Below, piece after piece: positions 2,380 to 37,106 of a DNA stretch of 39,995 nucleotides (within the stretch, counting starts at the first letter, position 1; the number at the start of each line of letters is the position of its first letter). Position numbers and translations under genes: made by a program. Source of the stretch: a virus. A model generated the notes under the pieces. That model worked only from the letters and a program-made list of their open reading frames with translations, was not told where the DNA came from and did not search any database. The stretch is from positions 1 through 39,995 of the IMG/VR virus record IMGVR_UViG_3300049489_001027. One strand, 5' to 3'.

Positions 2380-4037
2380 TCAATGATGACCTCTTTCTGC
2401 TGCAACCTGCACCAGAAGCGCCTATTAGGCGCTCAAAGACAGAATTTGAATCTGCGCTGCGTGGTATTGGCGGAGGTTACTTTGAATCGTTTGGTGAGCG
2501 CACTGCCAGTGCTTTTGGCGTTGGCGATGTTGTAGAGTATTACACGCCAGACAAGCTTCATGTTATTGGTGAACTGCATCGAAAAATTAACGACCAATGG
2601 GTCGTTAAAATTGACGATGGTGCGTATCAAACTGTACCAACAAGCATGTTACAACACTCGACGTCATCACCTAAGCATGTTGCCAGAGCAAAACTAAAAA
2701 CACTGTTCGACCGTGAAGGCGCAAATACATGGACGCTAAGCAGCGGACCAGATTGGCTTGACCCAAAAACGTTTCGGGTCACTGTTGATTATGGTCAACA
2801 CAATGCAATTCCGTCAGACGACGCGCTTAACGCTTATTTGTTGACGAAATTTGGCGCGAAAATGTACGACGCTGGACACGTGCGTCCTGGTGTATTGCAG
2901 ATTGTCGCAAACGCAGTTGACTCTCGTCCGGAGCACGCTGAACCGGGTACTGAACGCCCCGAACTAGACGGTACTGGAGTGGTACGTCAGGCCTTTGAAG
3001 ACCTGTGTGCGGCTAATCCTACTCTGAGCCTAGCGCCTCACGAAATCACTGAAGACTTAAATAGCACCGTCTTGGCCTTCTCGGTGAAGGATAGTAATAC
3101 ACGAGGGACGATTGCATGGAATGGTGAGGACGAAGCCACAATATCAGTGTTAGCTAAGTCAGGTCCTGTCATAGTGCAAGGGCGTGACTTGGCGCCTTAT
3201 GGTGATGGCAATGGACCGATATCCATACATGAAAATGAGCCAAACGTACAGAATAGTGGCAATTATATTGTAAATGCTCAGTCTCGTCCCGGTGAAGGTT
3301 ATTACACCCGTGAGCAGTGGGAGGAGGAAAAGAAAAAATACCAAGAACATGAGGAGACTGCCCCTAAGCCGCCACAGAAAAAAGAGGCGCCTCCGCAAGA
3401 GTGGATGACGGCCGCCGTTGATCCTGTGGCCAAGCAATATTGGTGCGAATATTTTGGTGAAGATTATTGTCAACATCTTATTGATGATGTGACTAAGCAC
3501 AACGCTGAGCTTGTGCGAACTATTACCGCTTCGTGGCTACTTAACCAAGATCGTGATCCTACCAACGAAGAGACACTAGGAGTGTTGGCTGCACAGGCGA
3601 AATTAGGGATGAGTGCGCGAGATGCAAAACAGCTCGCCAAACAATTAAGTCGCACACCAGAACGTCTACAAAACCTAGCCTGGGTCTTTGTGGCGCAACG
3701 TCAGGCTGAAGTTATGCCACCAGCGGCTGGTGATGCCCATGCTCTTCATATGCATGTTCAGCGCCGAGTGAGTGATGGTGGGTATTTCTTGATGGACGTC
3801 ATGTGGGACCCTGAAGCTGCAGACGGTCTTGGTCTGCCGTCGATCAAGCAACGTGTAATCAGCTTCATTAAGGGGCTTGAGAGCCAAAAAGCTTATATTG
3901 ATTATGGGGTTCTTGGGCGGGTTGTTGTCGAAGAGATTGATGCTGAGCTTGGGCTTGCCAAAGTGCGCGTTCGAAGCAGTGAAGCTCGAGCTGCCCCAAA
4001 GCAGGTAGTAAATGAGACTGATCAACAAGACACATAA
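2376..4037 (+). CDS. Conserved-type phage protein of unknown function, SH3/KOW-like N-terminal segment
   Basis: A 553-residue protein starting at the ATG of an ATGA overlap with the upstream gene. Residues about 45-90 (GVGDVVEYYTPDKL through WVVKIDDGAYQTVP) look like a small beta-barrel of SH3, Tudor or KOW type, with short strands and a turn rich in Gly and Asp. The centre is mixed alpha/beta. A Lys/Glu/Pro-rich linker follows at about residues 310-345, then a helical C-terminal half. The last 90 residues (RRVSDGGYFLMDV onward) may form a second small domain. No catalytic motif or membrane segment is visible. Tight coupling to the preceding zinc-ribbon protein suggests the two act together. 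Function not recognised. Confidence 0.8.
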   Translation: MINDDLFLLQPAPEAPIRRSKTEFESALRGIGGGYFESFGERTASAFGVGDVVEYYTPDKLHVIGELHRKINDQWVVKIDDGAYQTVPTSMLQHSTSSPKHVARAKLKTLFDREGANTWTLSSGPDWLDPKTFRVTVDYGQHNAIPSDDALNAYLLTKFGAKMYDAGHVRPGVLQIVANAVDSRPEHAEPGTERPELDGTGVVRQAFEDLCAANPTLSLAPHEITEDLNSTVLAFSVKDSNTRGTIAWNGEDEATISVLAKSGPVIVQGRDLAPYGDGNGPISIHENEPNVQNSGNYIVNAQSRPGEGYYTREQWEEEKKKYQEHEETAPKPPQKKEAPPQEWMTAAVDPVAKQYWCEYFGEDYCQHLIDDVTKHNAELVRTITASWLLNQDRDPTNEETLGVLAAQAKLGMSARDAKQLAKQLSRTPERLQNLAWVFVAQRQAEVMPPAAGDAHALHMHVQRRVSDGGYFLMDVMWDPEAADGLGLPSIKQRVISFIKGLESQKAYIDYGVLGRVVVEEIDAELGLAKVRVRSSEARAAPKQVVNETDQQDT

Positions 4038-5313: not shown

Positions 5314-6120
5314 ATGCGAGACGGTAGGATACATATTGGCGACGAAGTGTATCATTGCCGAGTCGTTGAGTCTGATGCTGAACGGCGTCGTGGCCTGCAG
5401 GACATGCCAAAGTTGGCTCAAGGTGAGGGGATGCTATTTCCTATACCACCTAGGGCTAGCGCTGCGTTTCATATGGGTTCAGTGTCCTATCCTATTGACC
5501 TTATTTTTATTTCGGCCGGTAAAGTCGTAAAAATTGTACATAACGCGCAGCCCGGATCGAATGACACATGGTCACATCCAACCTGTGATTATGTTTTAGA
5601 AGTTCTTGGCGGAAGTGCCTTAGGAGCACTAAACAAGGATGCTGTCGTTGATTACATTATTACAATTCCGAATGAACTAGACAATCCAACAACGGTCCCT
5701 GCATACGAACGCTATCAACACGCAGACCCAATGTTAGGTCCACTCGTCGATCAGCATGATTCCAAATATGTCCGTTGGGAGCTCGGCAAAGATCCAATCA
5801 CGCAGGATGAGGTTGAACCGTTAAAGCATGCCGTGGCAGATGATGCCATTAGTTCACTCAGCCGACATCTTAATTGGCGTCGTGACGCCCTTCGCGGTGA
5901 TTTGATGTCTGCACTCGTCCTTGATGATGACATTGCTGAGTGGATCGCTGGTATGGCGCTACCGACTGAAGAGGCGACGCATGCTTTTGATTACTACTCT
6001 CGGCGTGAGGGGCTGGCTGAATTAGCTGAGGCGTTTGTACTGCAGGGTGTTGCAAGTGCTACCAACATAGGCGTTACTCCGGCAGGCGATGTGTCTCTAG
6101 TCCTTTGGAGGAAATTTTAA
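5314..6120 (+). CDS. DUF192 domain protein with extra C-terminal domain
   Basis: Residues about 1-105 match the DUF192 family pattern (PF02643): an early segment RRRGLQDMPKLAQGEGMLF, then AFHMGSVSYPIDLIFI, then KIVHNAQPGSNDTW and YVLEVLGGSA. Typical family members read GLxxRxxLPxxxGMLF, then FWMKNTxIPLDIxFID, then NxxPxS and VLExxAG, so all four blocks are present. Bacterial DUF192 proteins are usually secreted or membrane-attached and of unknown biochemical function. This one has no signal peptide and carries about 160 further residues, helical and acidic, not seen in the plain family. Its place between the candidate small terminase and the large terminase suggests a role in head assembly or packaging; that is inference. 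It starts three bases after the upstream stop. Confidence 0.8.
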   Translation: MRDGRIHIGDEVYHCRVVESDAERRRGLQDMPKLAQGEGMLFPIPPRASAAFHMGSVSYPIDLIFISAGKVVKIVHNAQPGSNDTWSHPTCDYVLEVLGGSALGALNKDAVVDYIITIPNELDNPTTVPAYERYQHADPMLGPLVDQHDSKYVRWELGKDPITQDEVEPLKHAVADDAISSLSRHLNWRRDALRGDLMSALVLDDDIAEWIAGMALPTEEATHAFDYYSRREGLAELAEAFVLQGVASATNIGVTPAGDVSLVLWRKF

Positions 6121-8769: not shown

Positions 8770-9749
8770 TGTCAATTGATCCAGTCAAAGAACCAAAGTT
8801 ACTTAAACAGCCAGGTAAGATGGATTCTCAAGATACCAATTTCCCGGCGAGAGAGCTTGAACCAGGACGTGAGAGTGCAGATCCTATGCCTGAGCGATGG
8901 ACAGCAGACCTGTTGCCGGGCGGCAAGGGAGATGACATTTCTGACGATAACTTTGATCCAGATCAGCTGCAAGAAGGTATATTACATGAGCTTGAACATA
9001 CTCCTAATGTATTGCTCGCCAAGGAGATTGCCAAAGACCATCTAACGGAAGATCCTGAATACTATACAAAGCTGCGCCAAATTGAAGGCGAGCTAGGTAA
9101 CAGCCTCGACGATTTAACCATTACACAGGTTATCAATCCGCATACAACACCAATTAATATGTACCGTGAGTGGTCTGAGTCCTACCACGATTGGAATGTG
9201 CATGAGGGGCCACGCGACAAATTAGGAATGGCTGCGCGCGTCCCAGAAGACTTACCCGCCGATTGGTCATTCAGGGTTGAACAGGATGACGACGCCTTGA
9301 TTGTTAGCCTGATTGACCCGACTAGACCTAAACCGGTTGCCGGCATAACCGTTGATAAGAGCACCAATGAAGTGTCGTATTCGTATTCAGATATACCTGG
9401 ATGGGGTCCGCTTATGTATGAGGTCGCCATGGAAATGCGAACTGAGCAGGGTGCAGGCATTCGAAGCGACCTCTGGAACGTAAGTGATGCCGCTCGTCGA
9501 GTGTGGCAGCGCTTTTATGTACGGCCGGACGTTCAGCGAAGTCCTTCAGACGCCCCAAAACATGGTGATCCAGCGCTGCAGTATCAATATACAAAACCTC
9601 GAGAGCGTCTTACACAACTCGAAGAACAACAACAGATCCAGTATACCGGCGTTGCGCTGATAGATTGGGAGCAATATGACTGGACAGACCCTACGTACAC
9701 ACGCAAAGATAGAAGTATTAAGGTCTTGCCTCCGGAGAATGCTCAATGA
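8769..9749 (+). CDS. DUF5661-like phage protein with GNAT-like C-terminal domain
   Basis: A 326-residue protein. The ATG at 8769 overlaps the terminase stop (TAATG). The first 75 residues are polar and probably disordered. A motif of the form EHTPNVLLAKEIAKDHLTED followed by PEYYTKL (about 75-105) matches what I recall as DUF5661, a short helical domain common in phage structural regions. Residues about 200-255 (GWGPLMYEVAMEM, then GAGIRSDLWNVSDAARRVW) resemble a domain seen in many phage proteins that looks like part of an acetyltransferase-type fold; whether it is enzymatic is unknown. The gene stop overlaps the portal ATG and it sits between terminase and portal, so a portal-associated or head role is likely by position. 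Both domain names are from memory. Confidence 0.8.
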   Translation: MSIDPVKEPKLLKQPGKMDSQDTNFPARELEPGRESADPMPERWTADLLPGGKGDDISDDNFDPDQLQEGILHELEHTPNVLLAKEIAKDHLTEDPEYYTKLRQIEGELGNSLDDLTITQVINPHTTPINMYREWSESYHDWNVHEGPRDKLGMAARVPEDLPADWSFRVEQDDDALIVSLIDPTRPKPVAGITVDKSTNEVSYSYSDIPGWGPLMYEVAMEMRTEQGAGIRSDLWNVSDAARRVWQRFYVRPDVQRSPSDAPKHGDPALQYQYTKPRERLTQLEEQQQIQYTGVALIDWEQYDWTDPTYTRKDRSIKVLPPENAQ

Positions 9750-12700
9750 GTCGCATAAAAATATACGACAAATATGCCAGCATAAAAAAGCACGCTGATG
9801 AAAGCGAAGCACATGGCTTACAGGGCGACACCATCGAGCGCTTGGCCGAACGTTTTGAGAAATTTGTGCCGAAGATGGCAGGTGTCCGCGCGAATACCGT
9901 TACGGAAATGGACAAAATACTTCCAAAGAATGCCAGTTGGAGTCCTGAAGCGTTTTCAAAGCGCGGCAATGTTCCGGGCGGCGTTTCGATGGGAGGCAAT
10001 ACCTTTCATACCAATCAGCGTCCATATGACCCCGCGTTCGAAAGCCCTGATCGTCAAATGTATCCAGTGCATCGCATCTTGGCGAATCGATATTGGCGCC
10101 TGTTTTACAAACTTGACCCTGTCATCGGCACGGCCGTTGATCTTCGAAGTGAGCTGATGTGGGGTAATTTCACGCTTAGTGGGGAAGGCATTGATGGGGA
10201 GGTAAAAGATACTTTGGAGTATATGGTTGAAGAAACCAAGCTTCGAACCATGCTGCCCTATCTAAATCGTGAATATGATGTCGTCGGTGAAGTTGCGCCA
10301 CATTTGTTTTTTGATGACGCAAAAGGGATTTGGACGCACTTAACGCTGCTTAATCCAGACCAGCTTGAAATTATTGATGCGCCATTTATCCGCATGGAAC
10401 CTATCGCAGAGTTCGTGCCGGATGATCGCTTGTACGAGGTACTTACAAGCAATAACGTTCTGCTTCGACAAGTTCGTGACACTATGCCAGCTGAACTTGT
10501 TAGTCGATTAATGTCGCGGCAAAACATTCCGTTGTTGCCAACAAACTTCACGTTTATTCCACGTAAACTGCACCCATATGACGTTCGAGGGACGAGTATC
10601 ATTAGCCGAATGTGGCGCATATTAATGTATGAAGACTGCTTCCGTGCAGGTACCATGGTCTCGCTGGCCGACGGTAGTTCAAAACCAATTGAACAGGTCT
10701 GTGTTGGCGACAAGGTGTTAGATCGGTTAGGGTACGAACAAATTGTAACCGCCTCAGTTGAGAAATCACCACAAAAACTCTATGAGATCAAGCTATTTGG
10801 AGGAGTTACGCTTGCTGCGACTGCTACTCACCGATGGCCTGTTTGGGCCTATCCACGCACGTGTCAATGTGGCTGCGGTGAAGATGTTAACAAATTTAAG
10901 AGCTTCAAAGCTACGCATGTTGCAAAGAACGCTGAGATAACTTGGAAAACATATGGCAATGCATCAGATTCTAGATGGAGTCGTTGCCGTCTCCCGTCTG
11001 CATACAATCCTTATCAAAAAATAGAGACAAAAGACCTGAAAGTCGAAGATTATTTATTGGTCCCAAGAAAATTTGATGTTAGGGAAACTGACGCTACGCC
11101 GGACTACGCACGATTACTTGGATATTATTTGGCTGAAGGTTCAATAAGCCAGCTGTCAAATGAGGAAAAAGTCGGCGTGCATTTCGATTTTCATATCAAT
11201 GAGAAGGAAACTTACGCTAAGGACGTCGTCGATATCTGCGCAAAACTCGGCGTCGTTGCGCAGATTTATGACAATGCCGCACGAAATGCGTGCACTGTAA
11301 CTGTGCATAAATACGAATATTCGTGGTTGGCTGAAAAGTTATCCGCTGATGCTGGGCGATTTTCGCACGCCAAGCAACTGTCCGCCGAGGTGATATCCTG
11401 GCCCGTCAGACTAAAGCGTGAGCTTTTAATTGGTTACTGGCGCGGCGATGGGAGTAAAACAATACGTTTAGTGCCGACTCGTTCCATCTCGTTGTCATGG
11501 ATGACAGTTTCAGAACAGCTAGCAAGCCAATTGTGGTTAGTTTGCGCACAGGTGGGCTGGCCTGTCACGTCTAAGACCATCACTCGACATAGATGTAAAG
11601 ACGGCCGTAATCGAAAACTGCGTCACGAGATGACTATTAAAGGTCCGTTGGTTGACGAGGTGATAAAAGCAACTTATGGAATCGTCATCGAACGAAGTGT
11701 AGATTCAAACGCCTGGTCTAAAGTATGGTTAGACGATGACTTCGTTTATTATCCTATCAAAGCTATAACGAAGCTTGAAGATGAAGAGCCTGTTTTTGGT
11801 CTCACCGTCAGTGGAGACCACAGCTATATTGCTAATGGCCTTGGAACTTATAATAGCATATTCAATGCGAGTATTGCCACCGCTCGGCGTGCATCGGCCC
11901 CATTAAAGGTTGCGAAGTTAGGAAATCCAGCGAGTGGCTGGATACCTGACCCTGACAACGAACGGCGCTTGCTTGAGCTACTAGCACAAGCTGAGCTAGA
12001 CCCACAGTGTTTTACGCCAGAGACGTTAGTTACGCTAGGTGACGGTACACATCGACAGATTGGTAACATTAAGCCAGGTGATGTTGTGCTTGATCGAAAT
12101 GGCCATCCATCTGAAGTCGCTGACGTCTATGACGAGTTAACACATGATTTAGTGCGAATTACGCTCGCTGGCGGGGAGGAATTTGACTGTACGCCAAATC
12201 ATGCATGGCCTGTATTTGGCTCGCCAAGAGTGTGTCAATGTGGATGCGATACACCAATTAGCCAAGGTAACTTCGCGCCGTTTCATGCGGGCGGTAAGCC
12301 TGGGATTCAATACTGGCGACATCCCAATGCACCGCGCAAAATAAAAGATGTCCAATTTAGATTCTTGAAGGACTTTGACCCAAATCAACGTTTAGCGGCA
12401 AAAGATATCCGTCCTGGTGACTTCCTCAAGATGCCACGTAGCTTTAAGGAGCGCGCTCCTACATGTACAGAAGATCAAGCTTGGCTCTTGGGACTTTACG
12501 CTGCCGAGGGCAACATTGTTAATACTTATTTGCGTGAAGACGGAACCGTACGTCTTGGTGTTGAATGGTCACTCAATGCTGCTGAAACGCACTTAGCTGA
12601 TCGTATCGATACAATCCTTGGGCGCAAAATTAGTAGGTTTTTTAATCGCGAACATAATCTTCAAGTGTGCGCCCGAACAAATGGCGATACAGGTATAGCA

Positions 12701-14224
12701 ACTTGGCTCGCTAAACATGCGGGTACTGGAGCACGAGACAAGTCCTTATCGGTTGAGGTCATGCAATGGCCCCTCACCCATAAATTAGCATTTCTTGAGG
12801 GGTATGTCGCAGGTGACGGTGCGGCTGTAATAGTGAACAGCGGCAGGGCGGTGATTGAGGTCAGTTCCGCTTCGTTACAACTAATACGACAGGTTAAACA
12901 AATTATTACGCAGCTTGGTTCACTCGCGAGCTTCGAAGAACACTCACAACCAATCAATTCATTTGGCCACGGCAACACGATTTATCGACTTCAAATATAT
13001 GGAGAATTAGCAGCGGACCTTGCGATTAACGCAAAAAACGTTGATGCAATAAGGCCAAAAAGGCATAAATCATTCTCTTGGTCCGATGAAAATTATGTTT
13101 ATGCGCGCGTATTGAAAGTAGAACAGCTGCACTTCGCCGAGCCAAAGCGTGTAGTAAATCTCTCAGTTCATGGCGATCATAGTTATCAAGTTTGTGGAGT
13201 CGGTACTTATAATAGCTGGCTTTGTTACCACTACGGCGTTCAGTTTGAACTAGTTGGTGACCCTGGGCGCGTCATGACAATTGATAAGCATTGGGATCTT
13301 ATTGAGCGCGTCAAAATGGTCGCAATGGGTATATCGAAATCTTTTGTTCATGGCGAAGTTAGTTACGCGAGTGCTGCAACTGGCCTAACTGTATTTTTGC
13401 AGTCACTTAAGGCGCGTCGACAGATGTTTGAGGCGCAATGGCTGATGCCAAAGTTTTTCAAGCCGGTATCCGTCATCAACAAATGGGTCAAGCCAAGTCA
13501 GGCAGAGCTTAGCCATCGCGTACGCGTTCGAAGGTCACACCGCGAGCTCCTTGAGGACAAACGCTACATCATGCCTACGTTGACTTGGGATCGTACTTTG
13601 GATCCAAGTATTGACGCGGAAATGATCCGTGCGATGCAGGCATTGCAACAATTGGGGATCAAGTTCAGCCCGTCAACGCTCATGTCTACCGTGCATCGCG
13701 ACTTCCAAGAAGAAATACAGCAGCTTGCGAGAGACGGGGAGCACATGAAAAAGATGTATGGTGAGCATCCTGAGCTCGCATTCTCGATGGGGTCACAAGG
13801 GCCCGGTGGCAATAACACAGTTATGGCACCTCCATTGCCAGGTATTCCGCCCGAGCAGTTTGGTGACGCGCCGGCGCCTGAGCCTGCAGCAGCTCCTGAA
13901 GCGCCTGTGTCAAGTATTTGGAATGAAGAAGGCAAATACGGCTGTTGGCACCAATCAGACCTGCAAGACTTAATAAGCTTAATGCATGGTGGGGACGTTG
14001 ATAGCGAACCGTGGAGTGACCTAGCCAAAGATCCGCGTGTACAAGTCGCAATTCAGCAAGACGATCACGCGCAAGTTTGGAGTGCGATTGAAGGCTGGAT
14101 GACTGACCATGATTATCCTGCGCGTGACATTATCGATCTTGAGGACATACTGAAGCATTATGGTGTAGTGCGATCGGCGACGTTCGAAGATCTCGAAAAA
14201 TTAATTGACGGCCCTATTGTGTAA
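9746..14224 (+). CDS. Portal protein precursor containing two inteins
   Basis: The portal is the dodecameric ring at one capsid vertex through which terminase pumps DNA. The ATG (GGAG at 9734-9737, eight bases upstream) overlaps the previous stop. The frame is 1492 codons; removing two inteins (residues 298-703 and 755-1156) leaves a 684-residue mature protein. The exteins read as portal: RPYDPAFESPDRQMYPVHRI at about 90-110, a FRAG-free junction MYED/SIFNASIATARR, the linker GNPASGWIPDPDNE, and WLCYHYGVQFELVGDP to FLQSLKARRQMFEAQW. After a Pro-rich linker (about residues 1350-1395) a C-terminal helical domain follows, the last 95 or so residues. No upstream or downstream frameshift interrupts the frame, so splicing at protein level is expected. 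The portal call comes from location, size after splicing and extein sequence similarity that I recognise. Confidence 0.92.
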   Translation: MSRIKIYDKYASIKKHADESEAHGLQGDTIERLAERFEKFVPKMAGVRANTVTEMDKILPKNASWSPEAFSKRGNVPGGVSMGGNTFHTNQRPYDPAFESPDRQMYPVHRILANRYWRLFYKLDPVIGTAVDLRSELMWGNFTLSGEGIDGEVKDTLEYMVEETKLRTMLPYLNREYDVVGEVAPHLFFDDAKGIWTHLTLLNPDQLEIIDAPFIRMEPIAEFVPDDRLYEVLTSNNVLLRQVRDTMPAELVSRLMSRQNIPLLPTNFTFIPRKLHPYDVRGTSIISRMWRILMYEDCFRAGTMVSLADGSSKPIEQVCVGDKVLDRLGYEQIVTASVEKSPQKLYEIKLFGGVTLAATATHRWPVWAYPRTCQCGCGEDVNKFKSFKATHVAKNAEITWKTYGNASDSRWSRCRLPSAYNPYQKIETKDLKVEDYLLVPRKFDVRETDATPDYARLLGYYLAEGSISQLSNEEKVGVHFDFHINEKETYAKDVVDICAKLGVVAQIYDNAARNACTVTVHKYEYSWLAEKLSADAGRFSHAKQLSAEVISWPVRLKRELLIGYWRGDGSKTIRLVPTRSISLSWMTVSEQLASQLWLVCAQVGWPVTSKTITRHRCKDGRNRKLRHEMTIKGPLVDEVIKATYGIVIERSVDSNAWSKVWLDDDFVYYPIKAITKLEDEEPVFGLTVSGDHSYIANGLGTYNSIFNASIATARRASAPLKVAKLGNPASGWIPDPDNERRLLELLAQAELDPQCFTPETLVTLGDGTHRQIGNIKPGDVVLDRNGHPSEVADVYDELTHDLVRITLAGGEEFDCTPNHAWPVFGSPRVCQCGCDTPISQGNFAPFHAGGKPGIQYWRHPNAPRKIKDVQFRFLKDFDPNQRLAAKDIRPGDFLKMPRSFKERAPTCTEDQAWLLGLYAAEGNIVNTYLREDGTVRLGVEWSLNAAETHLADRIDTILGRKISRFFNREHNLQVCARTNGDTGIATWLAKHAGTGARDKSLSVEVMQWPLTHKLAFLEGYVAGDGAAVIVNSGRAVIEVSSASLQLIRQVKQIITQLGSLASFEEHSQPINSFGHGNTIYRLQIYGELAADLAINAKNVDAIRPKRHKSFSWSDENYVYARVLKVEQLHFAEPKRVVNLSVHGDHSYQVCGVGTYNSWLCYHYGVQFELVGDPGRVMTIDKHWDLIERVKMVAMGISKSFVHGEVSYASAATGLTVFLQSLKARRQMFEAQWLMPKFFKPVSVINKWVKPSQAELSHRVRVRRSHRELLEDKRYIMPTLTWDRTLDPSIDAEMIRAMQALQQLGIKFSPSTLMSTVHRDFQEEIQQLARDGEHMKKMYGEHPELAFSMGSQGPGGNNTVMAPPLPGIPPEQFGDAPAPEPAAAPEAPVSSIWNEEGKYGCWHQSDLQDLISLMHGGDVDSEPWSDLAKDPRVQVAIQQDDHAQVWSAIEGWMTDHDYPARDIIDLEDILKHYGVVRSATFEDLEKLIDGPIV
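10637..11854 (+). mobile_element. Intein 1 in the portal gene, with LAGLIDADG-type homing endonuclease
   Basis: A 406-residue in-frame intein (portal residues 298-703). It begins with Cys at 10637 in block A (CFRAGTMVSLADGSSKPIEQ), has a TxxH block B (TATHRWPV), and ends with block F (FGLTVSGDHSYIANG) and block G (LGTYN), followed by Ser as +1 residue at 11855. Two dodecapeptide motifs, LLGYYLAEG (11114-11140) and LLIGYWRGDG (11423-11452), mark a LAGLIDADG homing endonuclease. A CQCGCG cluster lies at 10862-10876. The penultimate residue is Tyr rather than the usual His. Excision would join Asp of MYED to Ser of SIFNAS. Boundaries are read from motifs, with high confidence at both ends. Confidence 0.93.
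12008..13213 (+). mobile_element. Intein 2 in the portal gene, with LAGLIDADG-type homing endonuclease
   Basis: A 402-residue in-frame intein (portal residues 755-1156), inserted only 51 extein residues after intein 1. Block A starts with Cys at 12008 (CFTPETLVTLGDGTHRQIGN), block B is CTPNHAWPV (TxxH), block F is VNLSVHGDHSYQVCG and block G is VGTYN, followed by Ser at 13214. Dodecapeptides LLGLYAAEG (12485-12511) and FLEGYVAGDG (12791-12820) indicate an intact-looking LAGLIDADG endonuclease. It shares with intein 1 the CQCGC cluster (12233-12247), the segment preceding the endonuclease, and Tyr in the penultimate position, so the two are paralogous. Excision joins DPQ to SWLCYHYG. Confidence 0.93.
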
Positions 14225-33091: not shown

Positions 33092-33592
33092 GTGGCACGT
33101 CCTATAACTCCGCCAAACACCCGAACTCAGACATCGCACGCGATGACTATTCATGCAAACGGTACAATGATTGGCGCCGTGAGTGAATGGTCTCCAGAAC
33201 ACTCACTCGATATCGCCGCAGTCTATGAATTTGGGCAAGTCACGGGCCCGTATGGACACGAGTTTGGGGCGCCGTACGAAAAGGTGCCTCAGAATATCAG
33301 TGGCCAGACTATTAGTATCAGTCGGTATGATATTTACACAGCTCAAATGGAATCCGTTTTTGGTACTGTTGACCTACAAATGTTGAGTAGTGACCCTGGT
33401 ATGGCAAACGGCGGTACGGGGCATCTGGACCTAAGGGAGACTTGGCACACACCTGGCGGAACCAATAATTATTCCATTTTGTACCAAGGGTGCTGGTTTT
33501 CTCGAATTGGGCGTACTATGTCCGCCTCTGGGGACAGAATTATTAACGTTGGCGCTACTGTAGAGTGGACTCAGCGTAGACGGGTTAAGTAA
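33092..33592 (+). CDS. Tail tube protein, copy 1
   Basis: A 166-residue protein starting at GTG 33092, following a 95-base gap that contains only two weak stem-loops (33002-33018 and 33036-33064) and no Shine-Dalgarno. It directly follows the sheath gene, the standard place for the tube. It shares with the next gene the blocks TRTQTSH, IGAV, VPQN, SISRYDIY with ME and F, and YQGCWFSRIGRT with RIINVGA, so these are paralogues. The beta-rich profile suits a tube protein that stacks as hexameric rings on the tape measure. The paralogue, not a database search, supports the family call. Confidence 0.8.
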   Translation: MARPITPPNTRTQTSHAMTIHANGTMIGAVSEWSPEHSLDIAAVYEFGQVTGPYGHEFGAPYEKVPQNISGQTISISRYDIYTAQMESVFGTVDLQMLSSDPGMANGGTGHLDLRETWHTPGGTNNYSILYQGCWFSRIGRTMSASGDRIINVGATVEWTQRRRVK

Positions 33593-33636: not shown

Positions 33637-34194
33637 TTGGGATCTCCTTTTTTAGGCGACATCGCCGATGCTGCAACCGAGCAATTCGGCATTGACCGCA
33701 ATTTAATAAACGACCTGATTACCCCGGACCGCGTTCCACATACCCGTACTCAGACGTCTCATGGGCTGACGATACGCGTCACAGGAGGGCGTATTATCGG
33801 TGCTGTGCACACTTTTACACATACGACTGAACGCCAATTGGACGAAGAGTGGGAGGTGAACATTGGTGCGCGCGGTGCAGGACCTACCGAAATCGTGCCT
33901 CAAAATGTGACAACGCGTGCCCTGAGCATTGAAAGGTATGATCTGTACGTCCGAAACATGGAAGAAGCATTCAATAATACAGGTGAACTCATCTCATTGA
34001 GTGACCAGTTCAGGCCATTTAGCTTACGCACGATCTGGCAATCGCCAGTGGGGCTTGTGCTCGGCGGTCGTCGGGTATACGAATACAGAGGATGTTGGTT
34101 CCGCAGTATTGGCAGGACTGCATCGGCCGATGGTCAAAGGATCATCAATGTTAACGCTGAGATTGTGTATCGAGATCGGGTGAGGTTGGTATGA
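33637..34194 (+). CDS. Tail tube protein, copy 2 (TTG start)
   Basis: A 185-residue paralogue of the preceding tube protein. The TTG start at 33637 is supported by AGGGGG five bases upstream and by alignment: TRTQTSHGLTI, IIGAV, VPQN, LSIERYDLYVRNME and YRGCWFRSIGRTASADG match the first copy, which begins TRTQTSH near its own start, here preceded by 30 extra residues. Two tube-like genes suggest one is the main tube and the other a specialised ring, for example a terminator, initiator or baseplate-proximal adaptor. The rare start codon and hairpin-masked ribosome binding site point to lower expression of this copy. The stop overlaps the next ATG (ATGA). Confidence 0.8.
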   Translation: MGSPFLGDIADAATEQFGIDRNLINDLITPDRVPHTRTQTSHGLTIRVTGGRIIGAVHTFTHTTERQLDEEWEVNIGARGAGPTEIVPQNVTTRALSIERYDLYVRNMEEAFNNTGELISLSDQFRPFSLRTIWQSPVGLVLGGRRVYEYRGCWFRSIGRTASADGQRIINVNAEIVYRDRVRLV

Positions 34195-34673
34195 AAAGGC
34201 ACGAGTTGCTTAGTAAAATTGATGAGGGGCTGCGCGGGCTACCACAGGAACGAACTGTTGAATTGCACGGGCACAAGTTTACCTTGCGTCTGCTTGACCG
34301 CGGAGAGGAAACGGAGATGAAGGCGCTCATTCCGGATACCGTGAGTTTAGCACAAGCTGTTGCTGATAATAGCGCGCCTACAATGGCCATCGCCCTGAGA
34401 GCGATTGACGGAACACCCGCTGATGTCTTATTTGGTGACATTCCAGACGACTATGACGACGAGATGCGCGCGCTCATTAGTCGAGAACTCGTCGCGCGAA
34501 AACGTATGCAGTGGCATAACTGCCTGAAATGGCTACAAGATAAGCCTGGTGTTTTTGTGCAATACTTGTGGGCTGAATACTTGGACCTCAAGAACGAGGC
34601 AAGGGAGGTGATGACTAAGCTCACCGACCCTTTATCGAAGACACCTCTGAACTCGCAATCCGTGCATATGTGA
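34191..34673 (+). CDS. Tail assembly chaperone, short (unshifted) form
   Basis: A 160-residue protein between the tube and tape measure genes, the conserved position for the gpG-type chaperone in lambda-like and myovirus tails. GAGG precedes the ATG, which overlaps the tube stop. The sequence is helical and charged (FTLRLLDRGEETEMKALIPD and EMRALISRELVARKRMQWHN). After residue 148 lies the slippery site, and the frame ends 12 residues later; a fraction of ribosomes should shift into the -1 frame to make the fused long form. These chaperones coat the tape measure before tube polymerisation. Family assignment is from gene order, size and the frameshift signature. Confidence 0.8.
   Translation: MKRHELLSKIDEGLRGLPQERTVELHGHKFTLRLLDRGEETEMKALIPDTVSLAQAVADNSAPTMAIALRAIDGTPADVLFGDIPDDYDDEMRALISRELVARKRMQWHNCLKWLQDKPGVFVQYLWAEYLDLKNEAREVMTKLTDPLSKTPLNSQSVHM
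34628..34634 (+). promoter_or_regulatory. Programmed -1 ribosomal frameshift site CCCTTTA
   Basis: C CCT TTA in the zero frame is a canonical X XXY YYZ slippery heptamer. The -1 frame is open from 34619 onward, and slipping here joins TKLTDPL to IEDTSELAIRAY and then the downstream ORF without a stop. The fused product would be 148 + 180 = 328 residues. A 7-bp stem (CGCAATC with GATTGCG, 34654-34678) lies further downstream than the usual stimulatory distance and may or may not contribute. Confidence 0.85.
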
Positions 34674-35176
34674 TTGCGCGTAAGGGGGTGTGCATCAATG
34701 ACCCTTCGGTACGAACTATGACTGACCTGCAGTGGAAATTTGAGTATTTGGCGTTGCAGCGACGAGACGCTGAGCACGCTCAGATGATTCAGATCATTCA
34801 GGATCGTATCGTTGATATGTTAGGCCTAAATGTTGGCAGTGTCGTACGTGAAGGATTTGATTACAAAGTACCGCTGTCATTGTTAGTCGGTAATCCGGAG
34901 ATGCTAAAAACCGTATTCGAACAGGCGCAGCAGGCGGCACAAGCCGATGATGCAGTCAACGACAATAGTTTTGATGAATTTAGTAAGCAGTTGATGGAAG
35001 CGACGAGGCCCGGCGAAGATATAGGTGACATTGTGCCGTTCGCTGTTCCAATTGATACAAACGCCGTTGAGTATAAAAACCCATACTTATATAGTGAAGA
35101 GTACCAAAGCGCCCTCACGACTTTGGTCGAATTGAAGCCTGGTAAAGGGGCTAAGGTACTGCTAGAAGATGGCTGA
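34670..35176 (+). CDS. Tail assembly chaperone, -1 frame extension
   Basis: A helical 168-residue ORF with a possible GTG start at 34670, but the frame is continuous back to 34619 and reads sensibly there (HRPFIEDTSELAIRAYVIAR), so most expression is probably through -1 frameshifting from the upstream gene, giving the long chaperone. The C-terminal part (SLLVGNPEMLKTVFEQAQQA) is helical and acidic. In phage lambda the gpGT extension (T) binds the tube protein while the G part binds the tape measure. The stop overlaps the tape measure gene by eight bases. If GTG 34670 is used a separate protein would exist as well. Confidence 0.75.
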   Translation: MIARKGVCINDPSVRTMTDLQWKFEYLALQRRDAEHAQMIQIIQDRIVDMLGLNVGSVVREGFDYKVPLSLLVGNPEMLKTVFEQAQQAAQADDAVNDNSFDEFSKQLMEATRPGEDIGDIVPFAVPIDTNAVEYKNPYLYSEEYQSALTTLVELKPGKGAKVLLEDG

Positions 35177-37106
35177 CCTGGACCCAGAGGTCGTTGCCGC
35201 AATGGCAGAGAATCTGCAACGACTGCGTATGGACGCAGAGGCGTTGGAGTCTGCACTAGGTAGTACTTTTGACGCCGCATCAAAAGATTTCGATCGAATG
35301 GCTGCTCGCGCAGAGTCTAGGTGGAAGAAACTATCAGACAGCATGGTCGCAGGTATGGGCAAAGTCGGCGCGAAGCTTAAGGGACTGTCAAGTTTTGGTG
35401 GACAAGCGGGGACTGGTGGGGCTAAGGGACCTGATGCTGTAGCGCGTGTAGCTGCGCGTACGACCGGCGTTGTTCAAGGGTTTCAAAAACATTTGGCGTC
35501 GATTGGAATTGCCGGACTGCCATTCGGCGGCCTGCTTGGGCTTATGATGTTCGGCAAATGGAAAGAAGCCGAGTACGCTGCACGTGGCAATAAGATAGCA
35601 CAGCAATTTGAAGGACTTGGTGACGTCGGCAATAACATCGCAGGCAGACTCGGAAGCAATATTCGACGCTTAAGCCTTCAACTCGGTCGGGACATTTCTG
35701 GTGAGCTTGAGTCATTGGCCTCTGGGTTATCCGATTTTGGCGTAACAGCAGAACAAGCTTTTGGCAAAACTTCACGAGCAGCTTTTAAGACTGATGGGGC
35801 TACGCGCTCGCTAGGCGAAACTCTTTTTGTGCTCGATCAGGGTTTTGAGGGCGGAGGCGCGGCTTTTAAGACCGCAGGTCAGCTTATTATTGATACAAAC
35901 ATGTCATTGCGCGACTCGGTGACATTAACAAAAAACATTGGCCTGGCTGCAGGCGCTGTGGGTATGAAGTTTTCAATGTTCTCTTCGGTTGTAACGCAGG
36001 CAACTAGTGCCCTGCGTATGCAAGGCGTTGAGGCTGAATCTATCGCGGATACTATCGCTACCGTAAGTCGACAATACCAAAGAATGGGTATGCAAAGCGG
36101 TCGAGCGGCGGCAATGGCGGCTTCTGGCATACAAGGCGCAGCAGACGCACTCGCTAATATGGACATTGGCATGAAGGCTATTCTCGGCGAACGTATGACT
36201 GGCGGGCGCGTTACGGGTCTTGCGGCGGGAACTCAATTCGAACGCGGTACACTTGGCGCAGGCGAACAATTTGGTGCAAGTATCGCAGAACTAATCGAAA
36301 TAACGAAAGAAAACACGAATGACGAGGCATCACAATATTACATGTTAAAGCAATTCTTGGGGGGCAATGCACAGGCGGCTGATGCACTTATGCGCTTACA
36401 AGAAGCCGGCGGCAAGGACCAAGGAGCCATCAAAAAATTGGCTGAGCAGCAAAGCGGGCGACTAAAGGGTATGCTTGATAAAGAAGCACAAAAGACCAAC
36501 GTGTTCGAACGGCATATGAATGTTATCAGGGATGCAATTGGTCAGCTTGGTTCAGGGTTGATGAAAATAATGATGGCAGGTTTCGGTCAGTTGAGCCTTA
36601 TATATCAAATAATTCGGGGATACGTTACCGGCGAAAAGGTTGATTGGGACGCGATCAGTGACGCCTCTATGGGACTTGAGCGCGCTACTAAGGATGCTTG
36701 GACCAAAATTCAGGGCGCTGGCGGAATTATTGGTAAGGAACTTGGCGGTTCTGCGCGCGACTTAGGCCTCGTCATACCAAACGCTCTTGGCGCAGGTCGA
36801 GGTGCAGACGTCGCACCGGAGTTGCGCGGGCGTAATACATTTCAGCATGATACCGCAGGAATCGTAAATAGATTAATTCAAGAAGAAAGGTTGCCTGAGA
36901 AGTCACGTGAGAAATTATATTCAGCGGTCAAGCGCGTCTCGCGTAGCCTGATGACACAAGGAACCACAGCTGCGCCGGCACACGAAGCAGCAGTGGAACG
37001 ATTTTTGCACAGTGATGAAGCCGCCGCGCTAGTGCAGGGTGGGCAAAAAATGAAAGTGACAATTTCATTTCACGCTAAACCCGGGGCGACGCCGGAAAGG
37101 CCGTAA
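35169..37106 (+). CDS. Tape measure protein
   Basis: A 645-residue protein with the usual order after tube and chaperone genes. The N-terminus is helical (ALESALGSTFDAASKDFDRM), a hydrophobic stretch lies at about residues 110-130 (IGIAGLPFGGLLGLMMF), and long Ala/Gly/Met-rich helices and small turns follow (GRAAAMAASGIQGAADALAN). Tape measure length sets tail length at roughly 1.5 angstrom per residue, so about 95-100 nm, moderate for a myovirus. A C-terminal 50-residue segment (about 595-645) is short and charged. No peptidase or transglycosylase motif was seen. The ATG is coupled to the chaperone gene. Confidence 0.85.
   Translation: MADLDPEVVAAMAENLQRLRMDAEALESALGSTFDAASKDFDRMAARAESRWKKLSDSMVAGMGKVGAKLKGLSSFGGQAGTGGAKGPDAVARVAARTTGVVQGFQKHLASIGIAGLPFGGLLGLMMFGKWKEAEYAARGNKIAQQFEGLGDVGNNIAGRLGSNIRRLSLQLGRDISGELESLASGLSDFGVTAEQAFGKTSRAAFKTDGATRSLGETLFVLDQGFEGGGAAFKTAGQLIIDTNMSLRDSVTLTKNIGLAAGAVGMKFSMFSSVVTQATSALRMQGVEAESIADTIATVSRQYQRMGMQSGRAAAMAASGIQGAADALANMDIGMKAILGERMTGGRVTGLAAGTQFERGTLGAGEQFGASIAELIEITKENTNDEASQYYMLKQFLGGNAQAADALMRLQEAGGKDQGAIKKLAEQQSGRLKGMLDKEAQKTNVFERHMNVIRDAIGQLGSGLMKIMMAGFGQLSLIYQIIRGYVTGEKVDWDAISDASMGLERATKDAWTKIQGAGGIIGKELGGSARDLGLVIPNALGAGRGADVAPELRGRNTFQHDTAGIVNRLIQEERLPEKSREKLYSAVKRVSRSLMTQGTTAAPAHEAAVERFLHSDEAAALVQGGQKMKVTISFHAKPGATPERP

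Follow-up and report, generated by a model that had tools for sequence, protein, structure and literature searches.

In phage lambda, gpGT carries a -1 extension, the T domain, that gpG lacks, and the two products work with the tape measure and the tail tube protein (as described in PMC5009743). Frameshifts of this kind are presented as widespread in tailed phages and as occurring also in some haloarchaeal viruses (PMC5009743, PMC8211752), and a stem-loop and a Shine-Dalgarno sequence are named as stimulators (PMC5009743). The locus considered here lies at 34191-35176 of IMG/VR virus record IMGVR_UViG_3300049489_001027, from an uncultured tailed virus; the whole stretch that was analysed, 39,995 bases, is referred to as the window. 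Judged from its sequence and that of its relatives, this locus very probably uses a -1 ribosomal frameshift to produce a tail assembly chaperone together with a longer fusion protein. A gpG/gpGT-style shift had been proposed in a preliminary description of the same DNA, and the proposal is now supported by the -1 relation in relatives, their heptamers, a hairpin and a chaperone-like model.

The proposed mechanism is as follows. The open reading frame (ORF) at 34191-34673 would code for the chaperone, and most ribosomes would end at 34673 to give a protein of 160 residues. A fraction would slip by -1 at the heptamer C_CCT_TTA, where the tRNAs paired with CCT and TTA would shift to CCC and TTT. 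Reading on in the -1 frame as far as 35176, these ribosomes would produce a chaperone lengthened at its C-terminus (TDPL-IEDTSE...) to about 328 residues. A Shine-Dalgarno-like stretch upstream probably aids the slip by binding the 16S tail of the ribosome, and a hairpin of 51 nucleotides (nt) that begins 6 nt downstream probably aids it too. The slippage itself and its efficiency we infer. By analogy with lambda gpG and gpGT, the two products would bind the tape measure and the tube.

All features of the locus, and the tube and tape measure genes beside it, lie on the plus strand. The zero-frame codons at the slip site read GAC CCT TTA TCG, placing C_CCT_TTA at 34628-34634 with 12 sense codons between it and the stop TGA (34671-34673). 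The -1 frame opens at 34619, after a TAA at 34616-34618, and runs to 35176; from 34634 it codes for a T-like extension of 180 residues. Every coordinate that the preliminary description gave for the heptamer is right, and codon reading confirms the -1 opening that it had claimed. The end of the -1 frame overlaps the start of a tape measure-like ORF (35169-37106; PHROG 10613, E 2.3e-4). The gene order is that of the gpG/gpGT kind, with overlapping ORFs, the second in the -1 frame, directly between the probable tube genes and the tape measure-like gene, and the slippery site likewise falls near the end of ORF 1, within the overlap. Of the 11,677 zero-frame codon pairs that the 28 longer plus-strand ORFs of the window contain, 21 hold a canonical heptamer (X_XXY_YYZ with Y = A or T); for the 17 codon pairs of the overlap the chance expectation is about 0.03 (product of counts). 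A lone heptamer is no proof of a frameshift, and the case as read from sequence rests on the relatives.

Conservation of the frame relation and slip site

Scans of viral contigs with single proteins, from either ORF, gave no relatives; scans with two-row, four-row and sheath alignments did yield them (L003, L004, L007, L008, L011, L013 and L014). In tblastn searches of phage records one record was found, Virus Rctr197k (L001), whose proteins are 28% and 32% identical to those of the window and which was matched by the -1 protein only; the proteins of L008 and L014 gave no match in such records. Bacillus phage G was reached through sheath similarity. Besides the window, nine relatives are thus counted; L009 and L010, which have no gene pair, and the duplicates L002, L005, L006, L012, L015 and L016 are excluded from all counts. 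Around the slip site L011 and L014 have nine 12-mers in common, L001 and L003 have one, and no other pair has any, which indicates relatedness at the protein level and not recent nucleotide similarity.

The second ORF is in the -1 frame in all nine relatives. A canonical heptamer lies in the overlap in seven of the ten loci, window included: C_CCT_TTA in L001, as in the window, A_AAA_AAT in L004, C_CCA_AAC in L007, A_AAA_AAA in L013, both A_AAA_AAT and A_AAT_TTT in L008, and A_AAA_AAC in phage G. According to the preliminary description, relatives with two ORFs kept and the heptamer lost would count against a shift; a canonical heptamer is indeed lacking in three of the nine and kept in six, and the -1 relation holds throughout. 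Alignment of the -1 proteins holds from the slip codon on, with the consensus xxIxxxxxxxIxAYVLxRKG. In eight of the nine loci of alignment A10 a conserved Y-V or T-V follows the slip codon at a distance of about 11-13 codons; L013 carries an insertion, and phage G, outside this alignment, was compared separately. In L004, L007 and L013 the -1 frame has its first start codon (at 6094, 4079 and 12198, respectively) only beyond the conserved segment; with no start before the conserved -1 N-terminus, only a shift would reach it. In L008 the first such start, a TTG at 4004, falls within the segment. The substitution phases between L011 and L014 in the first 100 nt of the overlap are flat (10/34, 9/33 and 14/33) and decide nothing. 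At the sequence level, both a slippery site, canonical or candidate, and the -1 relation are kept in the relatives.

Some observations on the relatives themselves stand apart from the frameshift. Over the stretch compared, L013 is identical to a contig that has been assigned to an Archaeoglobales genome bin; this contig (L016, QMZE01000009.1) carries this sheath, tube and chaperone set within the metagenome-assembled genome, which may reflect an archaeal host or mis-binning. By its capsid and terminase Virus Rctr197k has been placed close to phage PaBG (as given in PMC7412058). Neither the Archaeoglobales bin nor the PaBG placement settles the host of the window. L011 (12927-17050) and L014 (13171-17054) each have two separate tape measure matches, as if the gene had been duplicated, and the same is seen in the duplicates of L011.

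Predicted stimulators and protein fold

The preliminary description had named no stimulators; the analysis adds two probable ones, one on each side of the slip site. The predicted downstream hairpin (34641-34691, 51 nt, -26.3 kcal/mol) follows the heptamer after a spacer of 6 nt, and stimulator spacers of 5-9 nt are given in PMC4342338. Folding of 34635-34700 gives -26.9 kcal/mol with a z of -4.05, a value that none of 200 shuffles equals, and z lies between -3.8 and -4.7 at the best offsets. The arrangement, a predicted stem-loop after a short spacer, resembles that of the dnaX cassette.

The signal extends to the relatives. When nine loci are aligned on the slip site and scanned over 540 nt with fold windows of 62 nt, the lowest mean z is -2.55, at +6, where all nine are negative; elsewhere in the scan, away from the slip site, the lowest mean is -1.47, at -66. 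Once phage G is included, the per-locus minimum z averages -2.84 over ten loci, versus -0.83 (standard deviation 0.35) at random places (140 per locus). Random draws from the same records reach this mean in 0 of 100,000 cases for the ten loci, in 1 of 100,000 without L011, and in none without the window and L011. An enclosing hairpin with a spacer of 4-7 nt is found in nine of the ten loci, spanning 50-65 nt except in L001 (36 nt).

Covariation was assessed in seven of the ten loci, with L008, L013 (insertion) and phage G omitted. In the outer helix of 11 pairs, 81.3% of cells are paired, and 5 pairs and 10 cells are changed on both sides. None of 500 shuffles matches the pairing percentage or the cell count, and 42 of 500 match the pair count. 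Sliding the partners lowers the pairing to 38-54%, a control that leans in favour of the structure, since the structure was derived from the same sequences. A predicted hairpin behind the slip site is therefore for the most part common to the relatives, with covariation. Searches of the open-access literature turned up no account of such a hairpin being conserved in chaperone genes of this kind, and a search of 34500-34800 against Rfam gave no match at E <= 5.

The probable upstream stimulator is a Shine-Dalgarno-like stretch within ORF 1, AGGGAGGTGAT at 34602-34612. The pairing of AGGGAGGTG with the 16S tail has an energy of -14.2 kcal/mol, a value that 0.1% of 1000 randomly chosen places in the window reach. 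The stretch lies 17 nt before the heptamer; dnaX likewise has an upstream Shine-Dalgarno stimulator. Averaged over nine loci, the anti-Shine-Dalgarno energy has its minimum 12-16 nt before the slip site. Against background the stretch ranks at 0.7% in L013, 0.7% in L014, 2.6% in L011 and 5.8% in L004, and it falls below 5% in four of the nine loci.

Neither ORF of the locus matches a Pfam family. A model of the ORF 1 protein, made from eight sequences, has a mean predicted local distance difference test (pLDDT) score of 81.7. Among 718 chains its best match is the HK97 tail assembly chaperone 2ob9 (Z 6.7, 98 aligned residues, root-mean-square deviation 4.5 A), followed by YqbN 3klu (Z 5.1); Z is at least 5 in three of the 718. 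The BFVD database gives five matches with E <= 0.001, including phage G gp181 (E 5.7e-5) and gp182 and the chaperone of Rhodococcus phage Finch (E 4.2e-5). These comparisons lend moderate support to a chaperone fold for the modelled ORF 1 protein, Z being under 8. For the -1 protein the predicted model is of low quality (pLDDT 61), and the structure searches were made with the ORF 1 model only. Profile comparison relates both parts to phage G, the first with a probability of 96.0% (E 4.3e-9) and the -1 part with 94.5% (E 7.5e-8, 49 columns). What sequence and comparison establish is the ORF layout, the heptamer, the -1 conservation and, as predictions, the hairpin and a fold like that of the chaperones.

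Alternative explanations

Several results weigh against a ribosomal frameshift or against parts of it. In the A site C_CCT_TTA places UUA, whereas the best bacterial sites have AAG or AAA there, a difference that bears on how efficient the slip would be. Three of the ten loci are without a canonical heptamer, having G_GAT_TTC (L003) or A_AAA_GC (L011, L014) as candidates. The hairpin is weak by z in L001 (-1.25), L011 (-1.28) and phage G (-1.65), the last of which yielded no single enclosing hairpin. A Shine-Dalgarno-like stretch is absent from four of the nine loci (L001, L003, L007 and L008). With Foldseek alone, the ORF 1 model has no PDB match at E <= 0.001; 2ob9 is at the top but with E 0.29.

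The non-canonical candidates occupy the same place as the canonical heptamers, and the -1-frame protein is conserved across the junction in these three loci as well. Hairpin z is strong in L014 (-3.86), fair in L003 (-2.58) and weak in L011. The A_AAA of L011 and L014 fits the pattern Z_ZZN, described as the minimal -1 site (PMC5009743). G_GAU_UUY is given as the slip site of insect-specific flaviviruses (PMC4342338). In L003 the site is set at G_GAT_TTC (9057-9063), a choice made post hoc; ACC CCT TCT, the first reading, was rejected by its spacing to the conserved Y-V and by the position of the hairpin.

The likeliest rival, itself very improbable, is that of two genes with translational coupling, in which ribosomes stop at the TGA and restart at GTG 34670-34672. 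This GTG is the first ATG, GTG or TTG of the -1 frame in the window and the start that a gene caller would pick; it overlaps the zero-frame stop (GTGA) and could permit coupled initiation, and L011 and L014 likewise show an overlap, ATGA, in which an ATG meets the zero-frame stop. Coupling does not account for the -1 frame being conserved upstream of any start codon, nor for L004, L007 and L013, which have no start there at all. The predicted hairpin covers both the zero-frame stop and GTG 34670, which would place the restart inside it. The GTG also lacks a Shine-Dalgarno sequence (-1.7 kcal/mol, versus -8.0 for the ATG of ORF 1), a measure on which the starts of the sheath gene and of tube 1 are poor as well (0.8 and 0.2 kcal/mol).

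That RNA polymerase and not the ribosome slips is very hard to credit: runs of 7 A in L013 and 6 A in L004 stand at the site, but in the window, Rctr197k, L003 and L007 no run there exceeds 3, against the 9 A or T spoken of in PMC5009743, and the conserved hairpin, set a short spacer downstream, suits ribosomal slippage. A single intact gene broken by a sequencing or assembly indel, an error that metagenomic contigs do carry, is just as implausible, since the -1 relation recurs at one and the same position, in differing bases, in nine independent records, isolated phage G included, and none of the ten loci has a fused single ORF.

Neighbouring genes and known systems

Upstream of the locus lie two probable tail tube genes, at 33092-33592 and 33637-34194. 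The label of the first is inferred from its position and from PHROG 985 ('virion structural protein', E 7.8e-5); the second, which starts with TTG, is its tandem paralogue, 38.8% identical over 170 columns, and L004 has three matching stretches. Farther away, an ORF of 1492 residues at 9746-14224, a probable portal by position only, apparently carries two inteins, with Pfam matches to Hint/intein splicing domains, two LAGLIDADG stretches and, by eye, two Cys...HSY...TYNS blocks. An ORF with a DUF192 domain (5314-6120, E 5.6e-18) lies within the phage structural region.

A wider reading, to which about even odds may be given, is that the window and its relatives belong to a lineage of large contractile-tailed viruses in which a hairpin drives the chaperone frameshift, often with a dnaX-like Shine-Dalgarno sequence. 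The slip sequence would be swapped (CCCTTTA, CCCAAAC, AAAAAAT, AAAAAAA, GGATTTC, AAAAGC) and the stimulators would set the efficiency. If so, the ratio of gpG to gpGT may be far under the 30:1 of lambda. Taken together, the loci amount to a natural experiment: the slip sequence varies from one to another while a covarying downstream hairpin is retained, so that how slip site and stimulators share the work can be tested.

Among known systems, phage G gp181/gp182 is annotated as a joined coding sequence (CDS), a tail assembly chaperone pair. It has the same order of sheath, two virion structural proteins, chaperone pair and tape measure, the same -1 frame and a heptamer before the stop, and both parts are homologous by profile comparison. 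It differs in the heptamer itself, in its stop immediately after the heptamer and in showing little hairpin signal. Rctr197k_069/_070 of Virus Rctr197k has the same heptamer as the window in the corresponding position (L001:5959) and is annotated as two hypothetical proteins without a join. Its second CDS in GenBank begins at L001:6049, 90 nt past the slip site, and misses the first -1 residues; the split that the preliminary description expected of a gene caller is seen here, and the annotation of an uncultured group that includes Rctr197k is corrected.

The lambda heptamer is G_GGA_AAG. That of the window differs, and the window has in addition the predicted hairpin and the Shine-Dalgarno-like stretch. 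In its combination of heptamer, downstream stem-loop and upstream Shine-Dalgarno sequence the locus would work like E. coli dnaX without being a member of that system: the gene is unrelated, the shift makes a longer product, and the A-site codon is UUA in place of AAG. The window locus would join an already known class of chaperone frameshifts, to which it adds the predicted, conserved and covarying hairpin.
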